Part shown: in pieces, positions 973 to 59,792 of the stretch
How positions within the stretch are numbered: position 1 is the first letter of the stretch
How the letters are laid out: each line of letters opens with the position of its first letter
Assembly: GCA_949751835.1 (NCBI GenBank)
Contig: CATKHK010000008.1
Span: 310,001 to 374,000, forward strand
Length of the DNA stretch: 64,000 bases
Source of the DNA: Blepharisma japonicum
Lineage: Eukaryota > Ciliophora > Heterotrichea > Heterotrichida > Blepharismidae
Reading direction: 5' to 3'
Notes under the pieces: model-generated
The model's input: only the letters and a program-made list of their open reading frames with translations
The model's database searches: none
Told to the model about the DNA's origin: nothing
Made by a program: the position numbers and the translations under genes

Positions 973-3108
973 ATGACAAAAGATTTAAGGACTTTATGGT
1001 GGGAAGAAAATGTTGATGATGTTTATCGATTAATCCAAAAATTTTGTGATATCACTCTAATAGTCTCTTGCCTTTCAAAAACGCTTAAAGCTATATTTTA
1101 CCCTTCTAAATATCTCTTTGATGTTTTGATTCCACAGACGCTGATTCATATTCTTGTAAATTACTTTGTGAAGCATGCTGGAAGATCAATTACTTGGAAA
1201 GTAGGTATAATAATATTTGTTGTTGAATATTTCAATATATTTTTGTGTTATAATTCATTGACAATCCTTAAAGACCAATCAGATATTCTAGAATCAATAT
1301 CTTCTGCTGTTACTTTTCTTTTCGAATACTCAATTATTACTAACAAATGAGCTTTCAATCTTGTTGTGGCTAAGCATGTATATATTTGGCATGCTCATAA
1401 ACTAATTTTTTTCAAAGTTGATTCTGAAAATCAAGAGCTTTCACCTTATAATGGAATTTTGCTCATAATTGTGCTTTATAATGTCGCCTACCATCATATC
1501 ATAAAAAAATCTTATGAGCACTACTTATACAGAAAAGAGCTAGAGAGTTCCAAAAATAGACTAATTACAGTAACAGAAGCATATACAGATGGAATTCTCG
1601 TTATTTCCCAAGATTTCAGTATAAAATTTTTCAATCATTGTATACTGCAATTATTAGATACAACAGACTCATTACTTTATACAACTCTCAGCAATATAAA
1701 ATACACAGATGGAAAGAAAGTTGCAAACTTTAGCAACTCAAATTCTCTAATCGAGGATATTTACTTTTTACTTGAAAATCAAGAAATAACTGACATCACT
1801 CTTGGGATAACACTCATTGGAGATGTGAACTTGGAATGGCGAGCAAGGAAAATCGAATGAGAAAACTCAGCAGCTCTCTTCCTTATAGTAAGAGATGCTA
1901 CTCAAATTATAGACCTAGAACTCAACATTGCAAATAATAAGATGAAGACTTTGCTCTTAAGAACAGTCTCTCATGAACTGAAAACTCCTTTGAACTCAAT
2001 AATTTATTTCACCGATGAACTGTTAAGCAGTCACGGATATCTTTGTGAAAAATTGGAAAATAAGCTAAAAATTATATCGGTTTCTGCGAAAATGATGAGT
2101 TCGCTAATTAATGATTTATTGGATTACTCCAAAATTTTGGTCGGAGCCTTCACAATCCAAAAGTCTTATTGTAATTTGAAAGAAATAATTGAAAACACGT
2201 GCGATTTGATTAGAATTCAAGCTACAAAAAAAAATTTAGCAGTGATTACTAGGATAGATCCTGATATTCCAAATAAAATTTATACAGATCCTCACAGACT
2301 AAGTCAAATAATAATCAATTTACTAGGAAATGCATTAAAATTCACCATGAAAGGCAAAATTGAGATTACATGTGTAAATACTTCGAGAAAATCTATAAAA
2401 TGCTATATTGAAGATACAGGAATTGGGATCGAAGAGGATGCAATAAAACTTCTTTTTTCAGGATATCAGGCTAATTATATTCCTGATATAAGCTATCAAG
2501 GTTATGGATTGGGGCTAGGAATTTCCAACTTAATTGTAAAACAATTGTGCGGGAAGCCAATACAAGTAAAGTCAGCCATGGGCAAAGGATCGGTGTTTAG
2601 TTTTGAAATTGGAATCCTTGATCAGGCAGATAATGAAGCTTCTGTAGTTGTTGAGTCAAATGAAATGAACTTAAGCCATTCAGTCAGTAGTTTTCCTACC
2701 CTCGCTTACTTTAGACCTAAATATCATGATGTTCTCATTGTTGACGATATGGAATTTAATCTTGATATCCTTGGATCAGTACTGAGGAATTATGAAATAA
2801 ACTATGATGAAGCTGCTAATGGAAAAATTGCAGTCGATAAAGTAATATTGCATGATAATAAAGGATTCCCATTTAAAGTTATTATTATGGATTGTGATAT
2901 GCCAGAAATGAATGGATGAGACGCGTCAAAGAAAATTAATCAATTATTTAGAGACAAAAATATCAGGCATTTACCTTACATAATAGGATATTCTGCTTAT
3001 AGTTCTGATGAAGATATAAAACTTTCTTTTGAAAGTGGTATGCAAAGCTATTTAGCGAAACCTTGCCCACCTGAAAAAATTATTAGTACGGTGCTTAAGT
3101 TTTTATAA
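973..3108 (+). CDS. Hybrid sensor histidine kinase, membrane-bound
   Basis: 711 residues with TGA as Trp at three places. The N-terminal ~180 residues hold about five hydrophobic segments (membrane sensor region), followed by a PAS-like stretch (about residues 195-260). The dimerisation/phosphoacceptor box reads VSHELKTPLNS with His334. The HATPase_c domain follows with N box LLGNALKFT, G1 DTGIGI and a GLGLGI glycine box. The C-terminal receiver domain has VLIVDD, phosphoacceptor Asp640 in MDCDMPEMNG, and YLAKP at the end. Known chemistry: ATP-dependent His autophosphorylation, then transfer to the receiver Asp. ATG at 973 is the first in frame; the frame is also open a few codons upstream. 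Hybrid kinases are common in ciliates. The signal sensed is not visible. Confidence 0.93.
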
Positions 3109-27128: not shown

Positions 27129-28379
27129 TTAATTTTCATAAGAATGATAAGTTTCTATCAAATCAATAACTTCATGTGAAGCCTCATCAAACTCTTCGAT
27201 ATCCATTCCTTCACTTAAATATCAATGCAGAAAGGCATTTCTCCGCTTCATATTATCGAAATCTTGATAAATCCTATTTAAAGTGTTCTTAAACGCTGTT
27301 GTATTCATCAGCGAAGATACTCCCATTTTAAGCCCTCTTGGCCTAAACTCAGTCATTGAATATTTAATATTTTTTATATCAATGCCACTAACAAATGTCC
27401 CTTCTGAGCTAAAAAAGTCTTCAATTTGTTGAGATTTCGCTTCAAAACCTCTAAAGTTGCAAGCCATTGAAGTAATTGTATCTATTTGTGTGGTTTCACA
27501 CATAGCATTTGTTGATGTTATGTCACTGAAAAACTCCTGAATTTCTCCAGAATGTCTCATGCACATGCATCTGCAAGTAAATGGCGAAAATCCAGGCACA
27601 AGAAAATTCATTGTTTCTATTGGAGCGAGATTTCCCATTAACTTCTTCAGGTCTCCGTTTATCATCCCTGGGAATCTAAAGCTAGATGTTGCTCCTCCTA
27701 ATGTTTGAGCTGCTAAATGATTGAGATCGCCATAAGTCGGGGTAGAATTTTTATACCTCTTAAGCAAAATTCTCATGAGTGATTCATTATCTATAGCAAA
27801 AGTTATATTACCAGGCATGTGGAGAAAAGGAAATGAAAGCACTGCATTATAAGGCTCAACAACAGAATCAGAAACCTTTGAAGATGGGAAAACTGTTTGG
27901 AAGCTAAACAGGATATCTGGGAATTCGTCTTTAAGAGTTTCAATTATTCTCGAAGTTAGCCCACTGCCAGACCCACCTCCAAGGCTGTGCGAGAATTCAA
28001 GTGCCTGCAAAGAATCACAGGCTTCCACCTTAGTTTTCACAAGATTTCTTATATCATCATCTAATTCATTTCTGTAATATCCTTTGGCTCAATTTCCTGA
28101 ATTTTCAATTTCTATAAAATCTTTTGGGCTAAAATAATTTTTAAAAATAAACTCAGGATTTAATACCTCATTATACTTGCAAATTGATATGCTTCTTGCA
28201 ATATATTTTTGATCTGGCTGTTCTTCAAGATAAACGCCAATTTTTTCTTGAATATTTTCATTATTTTCTTCTAATTTCCCATTTATATCAATGCTATATT
28301 CATCAAAAATATTCTGCCAATTCAATTTCCCTAGCTGATTTCCACAATTTCCTACTTGAAGACGTAAAATTTCTCTCAT
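27129..28379 (-). CDS. Divergent beta-like tubulin
   Basis: 416 residues, about 30 fewer than normal beta-tubulin. It starts MREILRLQVGNCGNQLG (beta MREIVHIQAGQCGNQIG), keeps the GTP-binding glycine loop as GGGSGSG (normally GGGTGSG), PYNAVLS, TPTYGDLNHL, LRFPG-like FRFPGMING, PRGLKMG and AFLHWYLSEGMD. The strand/loop after residue 60 (normally VDLEPGTMDSVRSG) is shortened and altered, and the acidic C-terminal tail is absent (ends TYHSYEN). Two invariant Trp are TGA (28089-28091 and 27222-27224). It is probably a specialised tubulin rather than a bulk axonemal one. It follows the kelch gene by 17 bp. Confidence 0.9.
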
Positions 28380-32733: not shown

Positions 32734-33417
32734 TTAATTAGAGATTTTTTGCTGAATATAGACTGTTGCATCGCCTCAGCTCATTTTCTTAGTTATTGTC
32801 TCACGCACAGCCCATTTGGATGACTCAAGTCCTCAACTTGTGGTTAAGATCCAAGTTCCAATTTTCACCGGAAAATCCGCAATTCTTCTCATCATATCTG
32901 GACTGTAGCACGTAGAATTAGCAAATATAAAATCTGCATCAGCTCATCCTCTCTCAAACATATCGACATTTTCGAAAATTACTTCAGCAGTGCAATCAGC
33001 CTCTGCTCTACCTATTATTTCATCATACTTTTCTTTCATATTTAAAGATATTTCATATAAACTATGCAGCAATTCCAGACCAATACATCTTTGAAAATTG
33101 TGCAGTAAAGCGGCTGCTATTACGCATTTCCCAGATCCGGACCCCAAATCATAAAACACCCCACCAGTTAGTATCCCTCCATATCGAGTTTTTATAGTTT
33201 CGAAGACTTCACCTATAGAATAAAAATCGATTTCTCCGTAAACAAAAGTTGAAGATTTTAGTCTGCAGCTAGCTCTTTCAGCTTTGCTTGCATTTTTAGC
33301 AATTTCATATGTCCAGTCTCCAACTATTTGGCTAAATATTGCGCCTCTTCTATTTAGCTCCAGCTTTGAGTCATCAGATAGTATATAAGGGTTATCTGAT
33401 TCATTAAGGAAATCCAT
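32734..33417 (-). CDS. DOT1-like SAM-dependent methyltransferase
   Basis: 227 residues; three or more TGA codons read as Trp (32944, 32833, 32776). SAM motif I is VFYDLGSGSGKCVIAAALL (about residues 87-105), followed by IGLELLHSLYEISLNM, as in the DOT1 fold (FVDLGSGVGQ... GVE). Post-motif ADADFIFANSTCYSPDMMRRIA matches the DOT1 F-x-N-N/S...-P-x-L pattern. There is no long histone-binding N-terminus, so the substrate is unknown. Many protists encode such stand-alone enzymes. It lies 57 bp after the P-type ATPase-like gene on the same strand. Confidence 0.82.
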
Positions 33418-33474
33418 GATCTTTTTCTAGAATTAATCAATTAATTATAATCATATTAAAATTTATCTCAAATC

Positions 33475-35988
33475 TTAACCAATAAATCTTATTAAAATTA
33501 GTTGGATAGCATAAAAAATAACGCCTTGGTAAGTGTGTTCCCATTTTATCGGTGCTAAATACACACGACTGGACACCTTTGCAATCAAACAAAACCCAAG
33601 GAAAAATACGCACTTCAAGAAAACAAACATGTGTATCATCGTCCATGCTGTGTACATTATCTTCAAATTGCTGACTTGGATCCATAGATTATGAAGGCCA
33701 AAGCACACAAAAATTGTAAAAAAATACCCAGTATGAGGAGAATATTCATAGCTGTGATCTGACGCTGAAATATAAAAAAAGCTGTATAATGCAGCTAATG
33801 TTATGCAAATTCAGTTTCTTAAAGGCCTAGCTGGAATAGTAGATGGGAATGATACATATAAAAATTGTGTTACAACTGGAACTCCAAAATCAATGCATAG
33901 AATCCCAAAACTTGATGGTACTAATCCACTATAAAGACTAAGTAAAATATGTGTAAAGCAAGGTATTAAAGATCCTACAATCGCTTGAAAAATAAACAAA
34001 GTCACTTTTCTAGCATTTTTCAGCTCGATTACAGCATTGAGAAAATCATCAACCCCCTTATCAGATAGCATGACTAAGTCTGAAATTGCTTTTACTTCTT
34101 TTGCATTTGTCTTATGTGTCATTGAAATCTGAGAAATTTTTAGTGCAAGTGAGTTTCTTCCAAAATATGCTGATTTTTTGTCTTTGTAATTTTCTATTAA
34201 GTGGCACGTATCATAAGTTGATAATGAAGGGATTATGCTAAATCGCTTATTTTCAATTATTTTAGGATTCTTTTTAATATGGTCAGGTAAGTAAATTATT
34301 GGATCATTAGATAGCTTGGCTTCATCGTAAACCTCTGGATTATCCTTGAGGAATCCTGAAGTAAGAGATAAATTTACCAGGTAATCTTTGGATTCTGGCC
34401 CAATCGCAACTATATTTATTCCTAAATCTGATGCGAGTTGAATTCAATGCGAAGCATTATTAGTGTGTTCTCTAATTCCTAAAATCCCAATCAGTGAAAA
34501 ATTAAACATATCAGTTGTTATTCCAGACTCTTCAATTTTCTCTAGACTTTGAGGGAGCACATCTGAATATGCCAAGGCTAAACATTTTATTCCGTGATTT
34601 GCAAAATCATCGATAATTGTAGCGAAATAACTTATATCAACAGGCATAAGTTTTCCATTCACATACATTTCTTTGGAGTTTTTCAAAACGTCCTTGGCAT
34701 CGCCTAACAAAATCCCGCTAAAAGCAAGTTTGTCTTTATCATTAATCACGGTCAAGGTAAACTTGTTCTTTTCTGACATGTTTATCTTATAGATTGTATC
34801 ATAATCTTTTCTACTTACTTCTAGGTCAGCTAAAAAGCTAATTAAGGCTTTTTCAAAAGGATATTTAAATTGATCATCTTCTGAATCTTCTTCTGGCTCA
34901 TTAGGCATTTTTGACTTTAAAATAACATCTATTAGGTCAATTAGAAGTTTAAAGTCCTTGGATTGACTTTTCAATGCTTCTGCTGCAGTCATCAGCTTTC
35001 CTTCTATATAGACCTGCTCGACTTCTTTTTGACTATTGAGCAAGGCATATCTAGTATCAATAAAGAGGGTTTTTATCTTTGTAAGTTCTTTATATGCATC
35101 CGTGTTTTTTGGATAAATATTGTTCTTTAGCAATACATGACTGTGTGAAGAAGTATTGATACCTTTCGAAAAATTTCAATAATGAGGCATTTTTACAAAA
35201 ATTAAAAGTAAAGCAATTGCTGATGCATACCAAGGTCTGGTGCCAAACCCATATCGAAACAATACCAAGCTTATTCATAAAAATCCTACGAAGACTAGTC
35301 ACTTAGTGTCACTTTCATTTTCGAAATAATCAATTTTGGTTAGTTTTGCTAAAAATGTGTCTTTTCCGGTTTTCAATACAATTCCAAGCCCTTTTCCACT
35401 TTCAACTGTTGATCCTTGGAAAGCCATATTTGGGCTTCTATAGTAATTGCCATTCCCATTTATTTCTCCTATATGAACTCCTTCTTTCCCAAATAGACTG
35501 CACCCATTAATAACAGGCTTTATGCTGCCCACATTAACAAGCCTAATATCAGCCGGAATAATCATTGATTCTTGTATTTGAATCACATCTCCACGAACTA
35601 AGAATTTACTTTCAACCATATTTGAAGTCCCGTTCCTTATGGCTGGCACCATTGAGTCTATTGTTGGAAATTCTGGATATTGCCGAGTAAATGCTTTTAT
35701 TATGAAAAGAGCCACTGTGAATAGAATAATAAATATATGAGAAAGTATATGTGATGGGCCTGTATTGGCAATTTCTGCCATCAGGGTTGTAAAGAGAATA
35801 CAATAAAGAATGAAAATTCGATTTATGTATAGTTGGGTAAGGACTGTAGGCTTGTAAGTTGGCAATATGTTATAGCCAGTTTCCACGAGACGGTCTGCGA
35901 TTTGGATGTGGCTTAGGCCATGATCGATTGATGTGAGGCCAAGGCTTGGCAACAGGCTATTTAGTGGAATTAAATGCTCCTTTTCCAT
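33475..35988 (-). CDS. P-type ATPase relative without catalytic motifs (pseudo-pump)
   Basis: 837 residues, open throughout with TGA as Trp. Topology and order match type II (Na,K/H,K-like) P-type ATPases: two N-terminal spans, actuator domain (LVRGDVIQIQESMIIPADIRL), spans M3-M4, a large cytosolic loop, then M5-M6 with GILCIDFGVPVVTQFLYVSF (family [20 protein letters not shown]) and further spans. Catalytic motifs are gone: DKTGT reads DTRYA (Asp311, 35056-35058), TGES of the actuator is absent (INGCSLFGKEG), TGD is IGPE, and GDGxND is FGRNS. The PEG/PEGL of M4 is KMPHYW. The uninterrupted frame argues for a retained non-pump role. ATG 35988 chosen; upstream frame has only a GTG. Confidence 0.85.
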
Positions 35989-36452
35989 ATTAAAGAAAAA
36001 TTGTAATTGATATCTACTTATAATGTGGCAAGAAGGTAACACAAAAATAGGATTTTTTACTATTATTTATATTTCATTTTTATACCATTTTCGACATTTT
36101 ACAAATTTTTGTTTTGTTGCTACTGAGTGTTCTATTTATAAAAATTATAGAAAAACTTGAAAACTGTCCAATTCTCTTGTTGTCTAATGCGTCATCTATT
36201 ATTACAACCACAATTTACCTATTTTTCATATCTTTCATAGCAGACAGCGCGACAAGTAATTCAATTAATTTTAAACTGAACATCAGCTTATAGCTATTAA
36301 ACTAAAAATTATAGATAAGGGACATGCAGTGAGCTTATATGCCAAATTTTAGCCAAATAAATTTATTACGTCATGCAAATCTAATAATTATGCCAAAGAT
36401 AATTTCAGCCTATTTAGTAGTTAAAAATGTTTAACATTAATACAATAGTTTA
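35989..36452. other. Intergenic spacer, nothing recognised
   Basis: AT-rich 464 bp between the pseudo-pump start and a small minus-strand gene. No protein-like frame or RNA gene is visible; it should hold the pseudo-pump promoter. Confidence 0.5.
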
Positions 36453-36674
36453 CTACTTGACTCCATGGAACATCTTATAAGTGCAGCTAAGATATTCCCT
36501 TCTAATGTTTTTAACTAGATCCTCGTTACCATCCATCCTGGCTTCTTCAAATTTTAATGTCTCTTTTTGACACAACGCTTGGGCTTCCACTCCTTTGGTG
36601 ATTAAAGCCTTTCCTGCAGCTAACATTGCTCCAGGAAATGCTAAAAATTTAAGCGCCAAAGAGTTGTTTGACAT
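36453..36674 (-). CDS. Small protein, unknown
   Basis: 73 residues: MSNNSLALKFLAFPGAMLAAG has a moderately hydrophobic helix (about 5-25), followed by a charged helical region (KETLKFEEARMDGNEDLVKNIRREYL). Two Cys. It ends TAG/TAA-type with no TGA codons. It could be a small mitochondrial or membrane-peripheral protein. Not recognised; accepted because of its clean frame, ATG and helical composition. Confidence 0.5.
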   Translation of the reverse strand: MSNNSLALKFLAFPGAMLAAGKALITKGVEAQALCQKETLKFEEARMDGNEDLVKNIRREYLSCTYKMFHGVK

Positions 36675-43106: not shown

Positions 43107-44468
43107 ATGTATTTAAATAACGCAAGTCCAGTGAAGATCACAATATTTCTCAATGGCAACCTGAAAAAGAAATGCCAGCTCACAATACAGAAAAGCTCAA
43201 CAATGTCAGAAATCCTTTCGGATTGCAAAGATAAGCTCAGCATTGACAAGCACACAAAATGCAGGCTTTATGACTCGAATGGAGGGCAGCTTTCCGACGA
43301 TGACATTGAATATATCAACCCAGACGAACCACTTTTCCTATCTAAAGGTGAAAAATTCTCAAAAAGTTCTTCACTGGCAATTTATGAAGAAATCAAACAG
43401 CTTGGGAAGGGTGGTTTTGGGTCAGTTTCTCTTTACAGAAATAGAATAACCAAACAAGAAGTCGCCTTAAAGTTCGTCGAGTTGAAAACAATTCTGTCTC
43501 CAGAAGACGTAAATAGAGTGTTTACTGAAATTGGAGTTTTAAGAAATCTAAATCACCCAAACATTGTCAAGCTTATTGATGCCTTTGATTTACATGATAA
43601 AGTTTGCTTTGTGATGGATTACTGCAGAGGTGGAGAACTCAAGCAATATCTTGAAGAAAAAGGTCCGCTTTCGGAAAGGGAAGCTTTTTTAGTTGCTTGT
43701 CAAATTTCTGACGCGATAAGATATTGCCACAATTCAAGAGTTGTCCATAGAGACTTAAAACTAGAAAATATTTTATTTGCAACAGAAGATAAAGAACAGA
43801 TAAAAATCGTAGATTTCGGGATATCAGGGATGTTTGCGCTCGGAGGAGAAGGAGAAGCTAGTGATGCAGGATCACTGTTATATATAGCTCCTGAAGTGCT
43901 ATCTGGCAAGGACAACCGGACGAATCCAGCTTTAGATATTTGAAGTCTGGGCTGCATTTTCTACTCGCTCCTAACAAAAAATTTGCCGTTTTCAGGGGAA
44001 ACACAAAGAGAAGTAATAAATCGGATACTCACTTGCCAATATCCTCCATTACCTCAAACGATATCAAAAAGCTGACATAAGCTAATTAAAGGTATGATAA
44101 GGGTGAAACCAAATAAAAGATGGGGAATGCTGAGGATAAGTGAGCATTTATATAAATATAGAAACAATCCTGATGCTGAGGTAAGCTCTGATTCTGAAGA
44201 AGAGACTTTTGAAGAGAAAAAAGTTGTGCTGAAGAAGAAACCACCAAGTAGAAGCTACCCAAAATTAGTGTTCGCAGATAAGCAGAAAAGATTTAAAACA
44301 CCAATCCTTCGTCCAGTTGAGTAAGAACTATGTAGAATTCCTAGAGGAAAAAAATCAAATTCAATAACCCCCGGGCCCAGAAGACAAAGCCCTGCACCTC
44401 AAAATAAAGCTGTAAACCAAGCGCCAGTGCTAATTCAAAGAAAGTCTATATTAAGAAAGCCAGCATAA
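43107..44468 (+). CDS. CAMK-like protein kinase with doublecortin-like N-terminus
   Basis: 448 residues after removing a 15-nt intron (44321-44335) that hides the last ~43 codons. Residues 10-85 (VKITIFLNGNLKKK... CRLYDSNGGQLSDDDIEYINPDEPLFLSKGEKF) have the NGD..., lytxdG..., l..l..GE.Y/F.a.ge.F pattern of DCX or ubiquitin-like folds. The kinase domain has LGKGGFGSV, Lys122 (VALKFVE), HRDLKLEN (Asp216), DFG (Asp236), YIAPEVL and DIWSLGCIFY with TGA-Trp. All catalytic residues are present. The tail is basic and Pro-rich. A close paralogue lies at 55832-57083 in the other orientation. Group CAMK/SNF1-like by LKLEN and APEVL; substrate unknown. Confidence 0.92.
44321..44335 (+). other. 15-nt intron in the kinase gene
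   Basis: GTAAGAACTATGTAG, phase 2. Removal joins RPVE to IPRGKK and opens a further 43 basic codons ending RKSILRKPA; without it the frame stops at TAA 44322. Confidence 0.85.
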
Positions 44469-49833: not shown

Positions 49834-52527
49834 ATGTCACACGGCGATTTGATGAAATCTTGAACTGAATCTAGTTTTTGCTGCAGAAATCGAAGTTTAT
49901 CTAAAAACAGCTCCTTATCAAAACTTTCTGGACTTCGTTTCGAAATCAAATACACAATCTTGCCAGACTCAATCATTAGAATCCCTGGTGGCATATCTTT
50001 TAAAGCTGGCAGTGCTTTTGAAGACCAACCCTTCTTAAAAGGAGAAATTGTTATGTACTCGACAACTGGAAATCTTCATATGTATTTAGACGAGATAAAC
50101 CCCATCTACAAAAGATTTCGGATTCCAACCTCTGATGTTCTAAATGAAAACCTTCTTTCAAGAGTTCCGAATTCATGCATTTCTATAGCCTACAATTGCG
50201 TTATTTGGGAACATGGAAATAGAAAATTTGTTTTGAATTTGGATCCATTGTCTATAAACTGCTATTATTTGGGACAGCTTTACTTAACTGTAAATGGAAA
50301 TTCTTTAATGAATTTTGAAAGATATCGAAAAAAAAATGAAAAAATAATTGTTAAAAATATAAAAAAGGCTGAGAATTGTCCTGTGAAAATTATTGATACT
50401 ACTGGGATCTATGAAGAAACTGATGGGGAGCTAAAAATAACTGAAGGACTCTGGAGTGAGAAGTGGAAAAAATGGATGGATCATAAGCCAAGAGGACCTT
50501 GCAGTGTAGGGCTTGATTTTGAGTTTGAAAAAGCTAGCCATTTATTTGGACTTGCTGCACATGCAAATAACTTAGCCTTACAAGACACAATTGATGAAGC
50601 TCCATATAGATTATTTAATTTTGACAATTTCATGTATGATTTAGGATCAACAAAGCCATTATATGGGTCATCCACTTTTCTTTTAAGCAGGACAAAGAAT
50701 GAAGCTTCGGCTGGGTTATTTTGGATGAACAGCTCAGATACTTGGATAGATATTTCCACTCATGACTCTTATAAGCGCACACATTGGATGTCAGAAGCTG
50801 GAATTATTGAATTCATATTAATGACTGAGTCCAGTCCATTAAAATTGATAGAATCATTCACCATTTTTACTGGTCCACCTTCATTTCCGCCTCTTTATTC
50901 TCTCGGCTATCATCAATCACGCTGGAATTATTCTCAAAAAGATGTATTAGAAGTATCAGAAGGCTTCGATAAGAACAATATTCCATTAGATTCCATTTGA
51001 ACTGATATTGACTCTGTAGATGACTTTAAATATCTCACGTGAAATTATAAGCTATTCCCAAATCCTATGGAGATCCAGGATTATCTCAGCTTAAAAGGCA
51101 GGAAAATATTTATGATAGCTGATCCGCATGTAAAGCGGAGCTTCAAATATCCAATATATGCTGAAGCTCACACCAAAGGCTTATTGGTAACTGACGTTAA
51201 CGGCTATGAGTTCATGGAAGACTGCTGGCCTGGAAATGCATGCTGGCTTGATTTTTGTAATAGAGATACAAGGAAATTATGGGCTGAATTCATTGGATTT
51301 GATAAGCACCAAGACTCAACCAGCTGCTTAAGCTTTTGAAATGACATGAATGAGCCAGCACTATTTTTCGGGCCTGAGAAAACACTTCCAAAATGAACGT
51401 TGCATGGAGATTATGAGCATAGAGAAATCCATAATCTTTACGGAATGTATATTCAAAGAGCAACATATGAAGGAGCCTATAATAGATCTTTGGGAAAAGA
51501 TAGACCCTTTATTCTTGCAAGGGCCTTTTTTACAGGAAGTCAAAGATATGGGGCGAGGTGGACTGGAGATAGTAGTGCTATATGGGAATATTTAGATTTT
51601 TCAGCTCCCCTGATGCTGTCTATGGCTATTTGCGGACTTTGTTTTGTAGGTGGAGATATTGGTGGTTATTTTTCAGATCCTAGTTCAGAGCTCTTTGTAA
51701 GATGGTACCAGCTCGGGGCTTTTATGCCATTTTTTAGATCGCATAGTGATAACTTATCGAAAAGAAGAGAGCCTTGGAATTTTGGGGAGTCTACTTTATC
51801 ATTAATACGAGAAGCCATAAAAGATAGGTATAAATTGCTTCCATATTGATACACTTTATTTTATCAATATTGTTTCAAAGGAACTCCAGTGATTTTGCCA
51901 ATGTTTGCTTTATATCCAGCAGATGAGGTTTCAATATCTCTTGATAGACAGTTTCATATAGGTCCTGCCCTGTTAGTTATGCCAATTAGCCAACCTTTGC
52001 AGAAGAACATCTCAATTTATTTGCCAGAAGGAAGGTGATATGACTATCATACCTATCAAGAATGCGACCATGGGAATGTAAATTACCCAACCTCAGAATA
52101 TTGGATTCCTGCTTTTATTAAAGGGGGCCATACAATACCTCGGCAAGATACCCCAAGGCCATGCTCGAGAGATATGTTTTATGATGATTACACCTTAATC
52201 GTTGCGCTGGATAGAAACTTGGAGAGTCATGGACAAATTTACATGGATGATACTTGCACTTATCAATATAAAAGTGGCAATTATATTCTTGCTACAATAT
52301 CTTTTACAAATTTATCGTTGAAATATCAAGTGCATAAAGGGATGAATCTTCATAATTCGATATCAAAAATAATTATATTGGGACTCTCAAAAATTCCAGA
52401 GTCTATTTTGGTAGATGGCAGCAGCGCTGTAAAACTTCCCATGACTATTTCTGTCTTAGATGGTTCGGTCACTTTAAAAAATCTTCCATTTCATATTGAT
52501 GAGCCTTTTACTCTCAATTTCTCTTAA
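49834..52527 (+). CDS. GANAB: GH31 alpha-glucosidase, glucosidase II alpha-like
   Basis: 897 residues with seven TGA-Trp. The family order of GANAB is complete: ESSFCCRNRS near the start (animal ESSFCKRQRS), GPCSVGLDFEFEKASHLFGL, SLGYHQSRWNYSQKDVLEV, DIDSVDDFKYLTW, FWNDMNEPALF with nucleophile Asp, RWTGDSSAIWEYL with acid/base Asp, and PFFRSHSDNLSKRREPW. It trims glucose from N-glycans in the ER quality-control cycle. Unlike the family, no signal peptide is visible: the chain starts MSHGDLMKSWTESSF, and the upstream frame is closed by TAA at 49822 with no usable mini-intron. Frame and function are sure; targeting is not. Confidence 0.94.
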
Positions 52528-55831: not shown

Positions 55832-57083
55832 TTACTTTTTTGAATTTTTCCTTGCATCCTTTTTCCTGGGAGAGTGTGCTTCTATTTTTTTACTATGCAA
55901 ACCTTGTTCCGTAGGCTTTGTGGCGACCTTCAGGACTTTTCCAGGTCTTGCGCTTTTCTTTCCTGGCTCATTAACTACAGGAGACCTTTCCTCTTCTGAC
56001 TCTGGGCTTATACTTGCATCTCTTTCAAATCGATACTTATACAAATGTTCAATAATTCTTAGAGATCCCCACCTTCTTCTAGGATTTCGTCTCAAAATTC
56101 CTCTAATAAGCTTATGCCAAGGTCTAGATACCGTATTTGGCAATGGCTGATATTCACAATTTACAATTTTTCTAATGATTTCCTCTTGAGTTTCATATTC
56201 AAATGGGTGAACTCCTGATAACAAATAATAAAAAATACACCCTATGCTCCAGATATCAAGCATAGGGTTGGCTCGATTATCTTCTTTAGTCAGCACTTCA
56301 GGCGCAATATAAAGCAAAGACCCAGCGTCACTTCTCTCACTATGAGCTCCTGCAAACATCCCAGCAATCCCAAAATCCACAATTTTTATTTGTGTTTTAG
56401 AATCATTTGAAAACAAAATGTTTTCGAGCTTTAAATCTCTGTGGATTATTTTCATATCATGACAGTATTTAATTGCTTCTACCATTTGGCAGCCTATATG
56501 ATAGAGCTCGTCTTCTGAAATAGGCCCTCGTTCTTCTAGATATTGCTGCATCTCTCCACCACCGCAATACTCCATGACAAAGCAGATTTTGTCCCTTAGG
56601 GGAAACGCATCGTAAAGCTGGACAATATTTGGATGCCGTAATCCTCTTAAAACACCAATTTCAGCATACACACGATTGACATCGTCGGCTGAGATAAGGG
56701 AATCTAAGGGGACAAACTTCAAAGCTGCGAGATTTTTGTTTATTTTATGCTCGTAGAGTCAAACTGAGCCAAATCCACCTTCTCCTAGTTGTTTTATTGG
56801 CTCATATACCAAAATGCTGGAATCTTTTGAAAATTCTTCACCTCGTGATAAAAATAGTGGCTCATCTGGGTTTAAATAGTCTAAATCATCATCAGAAAGC
56901 TCACCTCCTCCAGAATCAAATAGTTTGCATTTTGTATGACTGTCGACATCTAGCTTTTCTTTGCAGTCTGAAACCAGCTCAGATAGGGTCATGTGCCCAT
57001 GAACAGTGACTTCACATTTCTTATTTAAGTCTCCATTCAAAAAGACGTTTACCTGAATTTAAAGTTACCCTATTTGATTCCAT
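55832..57083 (-). CDS. CAMK-like protein kinase with doublecortin-like N-terminus (paralogue)
   Basis: 411 residues after removing a 16-nt intron (57053-57068) that joins the short first exon MESNR to VNVFLNGDLNKK. Residues ~6-75 carry the same domain as the 43107 gene (VFLNGDL..., CKLFDSGGGELSDDDLDYLNPDEPLFLSRGEEF). The kinase domain has LGEGGFGSV, ALKFVPL, HRDLKLEN, VDFGIAGM, YIAPEVLT and DIWSIGC. It is catalytically complete. Identity to the paralogue is high (about 60% by eye), but intron positions differ, so at least one intron was gained or lost after duplication. The C-terminal tail is basic (KKSARPGKVLK). Convergent with the 55110 gene (56 bp between stops). Confidence 0.92.
57053..57068 (-). 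other. 16-nt intron in the second kinase gene
   Basis: GTAACTTTAAATTCAG on the minus strand, phase 0, after only five codons. Splicing gives the frame needed for the NGD motif and an ATG start. Confidence 0.82.
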
Positions 57084-58577: not shown

Positions 58578-59792
58578 TTATAAGTCCACACGTCCTCGGT
58601 TACTCAGTTCATTCAGTCTGCCAAACAAGTGATTTAGATAAAAAAAGAGCAGAATTATACATACAGTATTGAAAAGCAGCAAACTATTGACTGAATTTGG
58701 AGCTGAGTTCAAAATCATTTTAGTTTTTTGTCGGTATGCTTTTAAGTCAACTTCATCATACTTTGCTATTGGATGAATTTGCTTTTCAGGCTGCTTTTCG
58801 ACAGGAGAAGGCACATCTCCCAAACATTTAGCTCTAGCTGATTTAAGCCAATTTTCATGATCAGCCGCAACATCAGTTTTTGATCTGCTCTCAATGGTCC
58901 CTTTAAACATTGTGGATTTCAAAAAATTAATTGAGACTAAACATCTGAAAATAGATTTATCGGCTCCATTAGCCGTGACATTTCACTCATCTTCGACAAC
59001 AAAATAAGAACTATAGGGGACGTCTAGTGCTTTGGACGATGTTTTTATTATTAAATTTCCATCAGCCCATTTATATACTTGTGTCCTGTGGCATCTTGTG
59101 GTCTTTGGACCTATTGAAGGGCCATTTATCTTTGTTCGGAATTTGATTTCTCTGGTCCAGCCTCCTAACTCTTCGTTTTCGACTCAGTTGGTGATTTCAA
59201 ACTCAGTGTCTTTTCTTTCCATACAGTAGTCCTTAAAAGGATAAACAGCGTCATCAGCAAAAAATAGTTCAAAAAATTTTTTGGGGGTTATAGGTAAAAT
59301 AGCTTTGAGAGTTTCTGTCCTGTCACCTTCATCTTCAGTAGGAAGCATAGTAATCCCTTCTTTTTCTTCTTCTTCTTGGGTCGGAGGTGGATCTTCATCA
59401 TCACTCCACACTCCTGTGTCTTGAGATTCATCACAATACCCAGAATTTCGTCATAGACTATAGATAAATTGAAATGCTTCATTTCTTCTTGTGAACGAAC
59501 CAAAAAAGAATGATTTTTTGTTGGCACAGGCTATTTCTATGGAATTTGTGATTGAGCCTTTGTGCCGGCGAATTGCTATGACATCGCGGAATGGAATTAC
59601 CTGCTTTGTTTTAAAGCCCAAAATATTGGCATAAAAACAAAGAAAATTGTCAGTACAGAATAGTCTGCCGTGGATTAAAACCTTTTTCCTTAGCCCACAG
59701 CTAAAATCATCAAGGACATCTTCTTCATCTGGGAGTGAAAATAGAAGCCTTACGACTTGCTGAGAGTTCATACGTTGTGGAGCTCTAGACAT
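58578..59792 (-). CDS. GRAM-VASt (Aster/Lam-type) sterol transfer protein
   Basis: 404 residues. GRAM domain at ~15-115 (LLFSLPDEEDVLDDFSCGLR, HGRLFCTDNFLCFYANILGF, QVIPFRDVIAIRR, FGSFTRRNEAFQFIYSLW). Acidic linker (DDEDPPPTQEEEEKEG). VASt/ASTER domain at ~165-315 (FFELFFADDAVYPFKDY, WTREIKFRTKINGP, SSYFVVEDEW, STMFKGTIES). One membrane span near 370 (LLLFNTVCIILLFFYLNHLF). This is the complete architecture of Lam/GRAMD1 proteins, which move sterols at ER contact sites. Trp at three positions are TGA. TAA stop 58578. Confidence 0.92.

Follow-up and report, generated by a model that had tools for sequence, protein, structure and literature searches.

A probably maintained, catalytically degenerate relative of P2-type pumps in the ciliate Blepharisma japonicum

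Introduction

Whether a P-type ATPase can lose its pumping cycle and still be kept as a full-length protein is the question raised by a gene of the heterotrich ciliate Blepharisma japonicum. The gene (33475–35988, minus strand) lies in a 64,000-nucleotide stretch of contig CATKHK010000008.1 (positions 310,001 to 374,000; assembly GCA_949751835.1), referred to below as the window. A sequence-only reading had described its product as a relative of Na,K-ATPase-type pumps that had lost every catalytic motif while keeping its frame, and had taken it for what looked like a maintained pseudo-pump, of a kind for which it knew no described family. In kinases and proteases, pseudo-enzymes act as regulators of their active relatives. 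Among the printed cases that we found, those of P-type pseudo-ATPases are few and disputed.

The pseudo-pump gene has an intact frame

The frame runs for 837 codons to a TAA stop when TGA is read as tryptophan, and contains no TAA or TAG upstream of that terminal codon. Five in-frame TGA codons are present (codons 230, 238, 271, 515 and 726). This reading of TGA is backed by the glycosidase-like gene at 49834 of the window, in which a TGA codon occupies the Trp position of WNDMNEP, which we take to be the conserved GH31 tryptophan. For B. stoltei, the excerpted text of PMC9942806 gives UGA as a tryptophan codon, tiny introns and a somatic genome of 41 Mb; the genome analysed here comprised 45 Mb in 224 contigs.

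The gene content of the window is eukaryotic. The pseudo-pump gene is flanked by a DOT1-like gene 57 bases away on one side and a PRMT-like gene 954 bases away on the other. Elsewhere in the window we observed a hybrid histidine kinase with a receiver domain (973–3108, plus strand), a divergent beta-tubulin-like protein of 416 aa (27129–28379, minus strand; 306 bits to a beta-tubulin chain) in which the GGGSGSG loop is present, and a lipid-transfer-like protein with GRAM and VASt domains (58578–59792, minus strand). Two related kinases (43107–44324, plus strand; 55832–56992, minus strand) share a similar N-terminal stretch, as judged by eye, and in the former this stretch matches a doublecortin-like domain just above the cut-off.

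The synonymous codon score of the pseudo-pump gene was 0.033 (null −0.042, sd 0.010) and fell within the range of 23 neighbouring genes (0.013–0.065), the same genes serving as comparison range and as reference set. In random sequence of the same composition, the log10 probability that 837 codons would run free of TAA and TAG was −20.6, which excludes a chance frame, though not a recent death of the gene. In the trees, the end branch of the pseudo-pump measured 4.4–8.8 changes per column; that the frame stayed open despite so many changes argues for selection on coding for most of the gene's history. The gene is real, and its frame is intact as first described.

Twelve GT-AG stretches of 15–16 nt lie inside the frame. 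Since the frame stays open without any tiny intron, these candidates were not used, and, as judged by eye, an intron over the TGES site would not restore TGES. A frameshift concealing the catalytic motifs was ruled out by a six-frame scan of 33001–36600 (DKTGT, GDGxND and KGAPE with at most one mismatch; TGES and PEGL exact). The scan gave no match in the gene's own frame, and its sole match, DKMGT at 33550, lies in a different minus-strand frame near the 3' end of the gene.

The pseudo-pump descends from P2-type pumps as judged by sequence

A Pfam search of the protein listed two models and gave no match to the Hydrolase and Cation_ATPase models. PF00122, the actuator (A) domain, matched residues 112–218 (35335–35655, minus strand; E 5.6e-11, 42.7 bits, cut-off 28.1), and PF00690 matched a Cation_ATPase_N-like N-terminus at residues 5–57 (35818–35976, minus strand; E 4.8e-4) with 20.2 bits, just below its cut-off of 20.4. 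The best solved chains were Na,K/H,K-ATPase alpha (3e-11) and SERCA (5e-11). In hhalign comparisons, a profile built from six intact pumps of this genome, of which four are P2C-like and two P2B-like, matched residues 4–533 with E 3e-19. Taken alone, residues 374–561 matched a set of 25 P2 pumps from bacteria (E 7e-7). Homology was thus found for the N domain and for the P domain up to its GDGxND end, which lies outside this coverage. The homology to P-type ATPases claimed for the gene is far beyond chance, and these alignments indicate that the pseudo-pump descends from a P2-type pump.

The C-terminal membrane region (residues 664–837; 33478–33999, minus strand) shows six hydrophobic stretches in its hydropathy profile, the putative M5–M10, and has weak homology. 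The last 188 residues (650–837) gave an hhalign match with E 0.031 and a probability of 1.6%, so that the M5–M6 resemblance to Na,K-ATPase-type pumps proposed earlier is plausible but not significant alone. The smoothed hydropathy profiles of the membrane region and of P2 pumps correlated with r 0.68, a shift control giving 0.01 (sd 0.28), in an alignment that includes the pseudo-pump itself. In the putative M6, ILCIDFG, one Asp is kept and the second is Pro.

As for the class of the ancestor, the best pairwise match was the P2C-like gene L002 (4e-15, 22% identity), the best blastp matches were P2C, and the M6 ILCIDFG fits P2C, not the WVNL of P2B. The best NCBIfam model was that of the P3A proton pump (48.7 bits); TIGR01106, the Na,K (P2C) type, gave 27 bits, far below its cut-off of 946. 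Family profiles built from the data gave 83.8 bits for bacterial P2, 59.0 for P2B and 52.0 for P2C. The best tree grouped the pseudo-pump with P2C (support 59), and AU tests rejected none of four alternatives (p 0.39–0.52). The gene possibly originated in the Na,K-ATPase-like P2C group. No close paralogue of residues 223–837 was found in the genome, the best match being a P2B-like gene (E 5.6e-4), and no relative of the pseudo-pump was found in viral contigs.

All catalytic motifs are altered, with one aspartate kept

All the following positions are on the minus strand. At residues 166–169 (35482–35493), FGKE replaces TGES, the dephosphorylation loop; it is ungapped in the PDB alignment, and other alignments place LFG followed by gaps. 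Several alignments put PHYW (residues 268–271; 35176–35187) in place of the M4 PEGL, LGDAK (residues 428–432; 34693–34707) in place of KGAPE, with loss of the nucleotide-binding Lys, and IGPE (residues 529–532; 34393–34404) in place of TGD. FGRNS (residues 609–613; 34150–34164) replaces GDGVNDS, FGRN being placed with gaps. The losses of TGES, TGD, GDGVND and PEGL that had been read from the letters each appeared in more than one alignment; at M4 the Glu is indeed gone, but the Pro is still present.

DTRYA (residues 311–315; 35044–35058) aligns on DKTGT in several alignments. Its K, T, G and T positions are lost, but the Asp column is kept, and D311 occupies an invariant column in a 58-row alignment, which took 57 of 75 bacterial or archaeal pumps. 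The catalytic residues are therefore not all lost, and the statement that every catalytic motif had gone holds for TGES, TGD and GDGxND but not for this aspartate. Recovery of DKTGT and GDGxND by a better alignment had been named as a refutation of the earlier reading; only the Asp of DKTGT came back, and GDGxND and the rest of DKTGT did not. The protein therefore carries neither a complete DKTGT nor any of the TGES, TGD, GDGxND and KGA motifs of a P-type ATPase enzyme. As for the earlier term "maintained pseudo-pump", the sequence gives good support to a pump relative that is catalytically dead, and maintenance is probable, backed by the frame and the codon usage.

The actuator domain is kept better than the P/N region

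Conserved residues were kept unevenly in the pseudo-pump, 13 of 19 in the A domain and 17 of 79 in the P/N region (p 1.7e-4). For six intact pumps of the genome that do not belong to the reference set, the counts were 16–18 of 19 and 43–52 of 79, respectively. The P/N retention of the pseudo-pump was lower than that of three of these six pumps (p 4e-6 to 3e-5), and its A-domain retention did not differ from that of the intact pumps tested (p 0.45). Two half-degenerate genes described below, L010 and L049, kept 44/79 and 42/79 P/N residues, respectively. One intact distant pump, L039, kept 16/19 in the A domain against 43/79 in the P/N region (p 0.02); intact distant pumps thus likewise keep the A domain better, so that what is unusual in the pseudo-pump is the size of the gap alone, and its low P/N retention may partly be due to misalignment at such divergence.

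The data did not clearly support a preferential loss of catalytic residues relative to other conserved ones. In columns at least 90% conserved among 49 reference pumps, retention was 7 of 34 for catalytic residues and 19 of 54 for the others (p 0.16); in columns at least 80% conserved, the numbers were 7 of 38 and 37 of 99 (p 0.04). By chance, about 5 of 88 conserved residues are expected to be kept. The reference rows were 14 hand-picked pumps of the genome and 35 of the 75 bacterial or archaeal pumps, and one of them, L023, carries TGET where others have TGES. Five of 80 fetched loci had been left out beforehand, one for its length and four in which one of the exact motif strings was missing, and the reference set therefore leans to intact motifs.

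Other degenerate pumps occur in the same genome

A PF00122 profile search of the genome gave at least 111 actuator-domain hits. Hits should not be equated with genes, since three of them near C35:233k appear to belong to a single gene, and only the best candidates are scored by the search; a dead pump with no recognisable A domain would escape it. DKTGT was found nearby, on the same strand and no more than 1,200 bases downstream, for 95 of the 111 hits and was absent for 16; it was present for 85 of 99 hits on contigs C1–C86 and for 10 of 12 on later contigs, where it was read from the loci. As a DNA pattern, DKTGT occurred at 111 places in the genome, versus 9 for a reversed control.

The 16 hits without DKTGT were the pseudo-pump, C1:856105, C35:244542, C96:20674, C30:271699, C96:19579 and ten altered P-loops, namely DKSGT (three), DRSGT (three), DKTGS, DRAGT, DKSKT and NKSGA, some of them read by eye. 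Two of these ten genes, scanned as fragments, matched a phospholipid-ATPase model below the cut-off. The gene with NKSGA (C18:258606, L055) and that with DKSKT (C1:808882, L140), the latter matching the phospholipid-ATPase model, are perhaps inactive too.

The C1 gene (C1:855649–857844, plus strand) is an unbroken 731-aa PMCA-like (P2B-like) frame without an N domain, in which SGQKE replaces DKTGT and GTCQTD replaces GDGVND. It grouped inside P2B in the tree (support 97/96), and a 398-aa fragment of it kept 12/19 conserved residues in the A domain and 16/67 in the P/N region. Over this fragment it showed no similarity to the pseudo-pump, and a kinship between these two genes was not supported.

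L049 (C35:244542) is P3A proton-pump-like and scored 768 bits on the proton-pump model (cut-off 615). It carries KKTGM, the phospho-acceptor Asp being replaced by Lys, and is otherwise well conserved; it shares 56% identity with its intact paralogue (pN 0.28, pS 0.74, synonymous sites being saturated). L010 (C96:20254–22878) is a half-degenerate P2C-like gene with DKTGV, TGEN, GDEMND and an M4 "PH" instead of PEGL, at 33–35% identity to intact P2C genes. The pseudo-pump shares this "PH" with L010, and AU tests neither rejected nor showed that the two are sisters.

Two further P2C-like genes, L007 (C30:271315–272022) and L012 (C96:19195–19911), encode actuator-only proteins, which consist of the N-terminus, M1–M2 and the A domain and then stop. 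TGES is absent in both, and the following 360 bases, read in all three forward frames, showed no pump continuation. The two proteins are 55% identical over 252 codons (dN 0.33; dS about 1.66, near saturation), giving a dN/dS of about 0.2, compared with the lower values of about 0.08–0.12 for three intact P2C pairs; the dN/dS and pN/pS figures concern these relatives and not the pseudo-pump gene itself. The presence of several degenerate pumps of different classes with kept frames indicates that loss of catalytic motifs with the frame kept happened several times in this genome.

Discussion

It is very likely that the pseudo-pump is a maintained protein derived from a dead pump. As to how it came about, we tentatively favour the reading that a P2-type pump has ceased to run its ATP-driven cycle and persists as a full-length membrane protein that does something other than pumping. 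Such a protein would no longer form and cycle a phosphoenzyme, its membrane part would still fold like that of a pump, and it would act as a non-catalytic partner or scaffold that binds an active P2 pump, or some other membrane protein, through its A domain and membrane helices. That a dead pump keeps its A domain and its membrane hydropathy makes a partner or scaffold the most likely job, although as a specific mechanism this proposal is possible rather than probable.

The long branch and the wide loss of conserved columns, catalytic and other alike, would also fit a decaying pseudogene that died recently and whose frame has not yet been hit. We consider this quite unlikely, because 837 codons have stayed free of TAA and TAG after protein-saturating changes, codon usage is normal, the A domain is still conserved and the membrane hydropathy pattern is kept. 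The same hydropathy, kept while the P/N region decays, could instead point to a passive channel, a lipid scramblase or an ion-binding receptor built on the membrane part of the pump, with the cytosolic part as lever or sensor, and a lipid occupies the membrane groove of TMEM94 (PMC12134183). This reading is unlikely, in that most cation-site residues are replaced and the A domain is well kept, though a channel has no obvious need for one.

A divergent working pump or ATP-coupled transporter, using D311 with unusual motifs as has been claimed for ERMA/TMEM94, is very unlikely. The invariant D311 column speaks for it, and in the excerpted text of PMC13322241 the D427N substitution of ERMA abolished Mg2+ uptake despite DKQGI and GSSANL. 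However, TGES, KGA, TGD and GDGxND are all gone from the Blepharisma protein, the Lys of DKTGT is gone too, whereas ERMA keeps it, substitutions stand at the M4 Glu and, as judged by eye, at the M5 Asn and Glu positions, and the activity of ERMA is itself disputed (PMC12134183).

The view that no family of this kind had been described does not hold, since degenerate P-type ATPases are already in print for TMEM94/ERMA and for the P4 domain of PfGC-beta. TMEM94/ERMA has DKQGI for DKTGT and GSSANL for GDGVND, and TGES is absent (PMC12134183; excerpted text of PMC13322241). One study imaged it by cryo-EM in six conditions, ran an ATPase assay and detected no cycle (PMC12134183), whereas the excerpt from another group reports Asp-dependent Mg2+ uptake (PMC13322241). 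Like the pseudo-pump, it combines a P-type architecture with degenerate motifs and a kept Asp column; it differs in its length (1356 versus 837 residues), in the GMN motif at M10, which the pseudo-pump does not have, and in its retention of the DKTGT Lys. No TMEM94 entry was among the best 60 of 67 matched PDB sequences, a set that may not include a TMEM94 chain. The P4-ATPase domain of Plasmodium falciparum GC-beta is described as degenerate in the excerpted text of PMC6592433; it is of P4 type and fused to a cyclase, whereas the pseudo-pump is P2-like and gave no cyclase domain in the Pfam search. The P2C (Na,K-ATPase alpha-like) pumps of the same genome resemble the pseudo-pump in the N-terminus, the A domain and the CID of M6, but identity is 22%, and of their catalytic motifs the pseudo-pump keeps the Asp of DKTGT alone.

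A precedent for keeping dead paralogues, and nothing more, comes from another enzyme family. As the excerpted text of PMC9942806 has it, knocking down most of the Paramecium PiggyBac paralogues that are catalytically incomplete impairs DNA excision, although the full triad is present in a single paralogue; dead PiggyBac paralogues of B. stoltei are under purifying selection; and most short Blepharisma paralogues are weakly expressed, which suggests pseudogenisation. None of TMEM94/ERMA, PfGC-beta and the PiggyBac paralogues is orthologous to the pseudo-pump. For CATP-1, pump-independent roles are disputed in the excerpted source, but the Asp is kept. A literature search for P-type ATPase pseudoenzymes or for a lost conserved aspartate found none, and we do not claim that ciliate pseudo-pumps are absent from print.

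With several dead pumps in one genome, broken pumps may have been reused for a non-pumping job. On a broader proposal, which we regard as rather improbable, P2C, P2B, P3A and perhaps P4 pumps would repeatedly have lost catalysis with the actuator kept, down to free-standing M1–M2 plus actuator proteins, and would serve as regulators led by the actuator, joining active pumps or competing with them and setting their turnover. A genome with at least 111 actuator-domain hits and several degenerate pumps of different classes would allow one to ask what in the pump fold is still worth keeping after pumping stops; the uneven decay in the pseudo-pump and the actuator-only proteins both point to the A domain.
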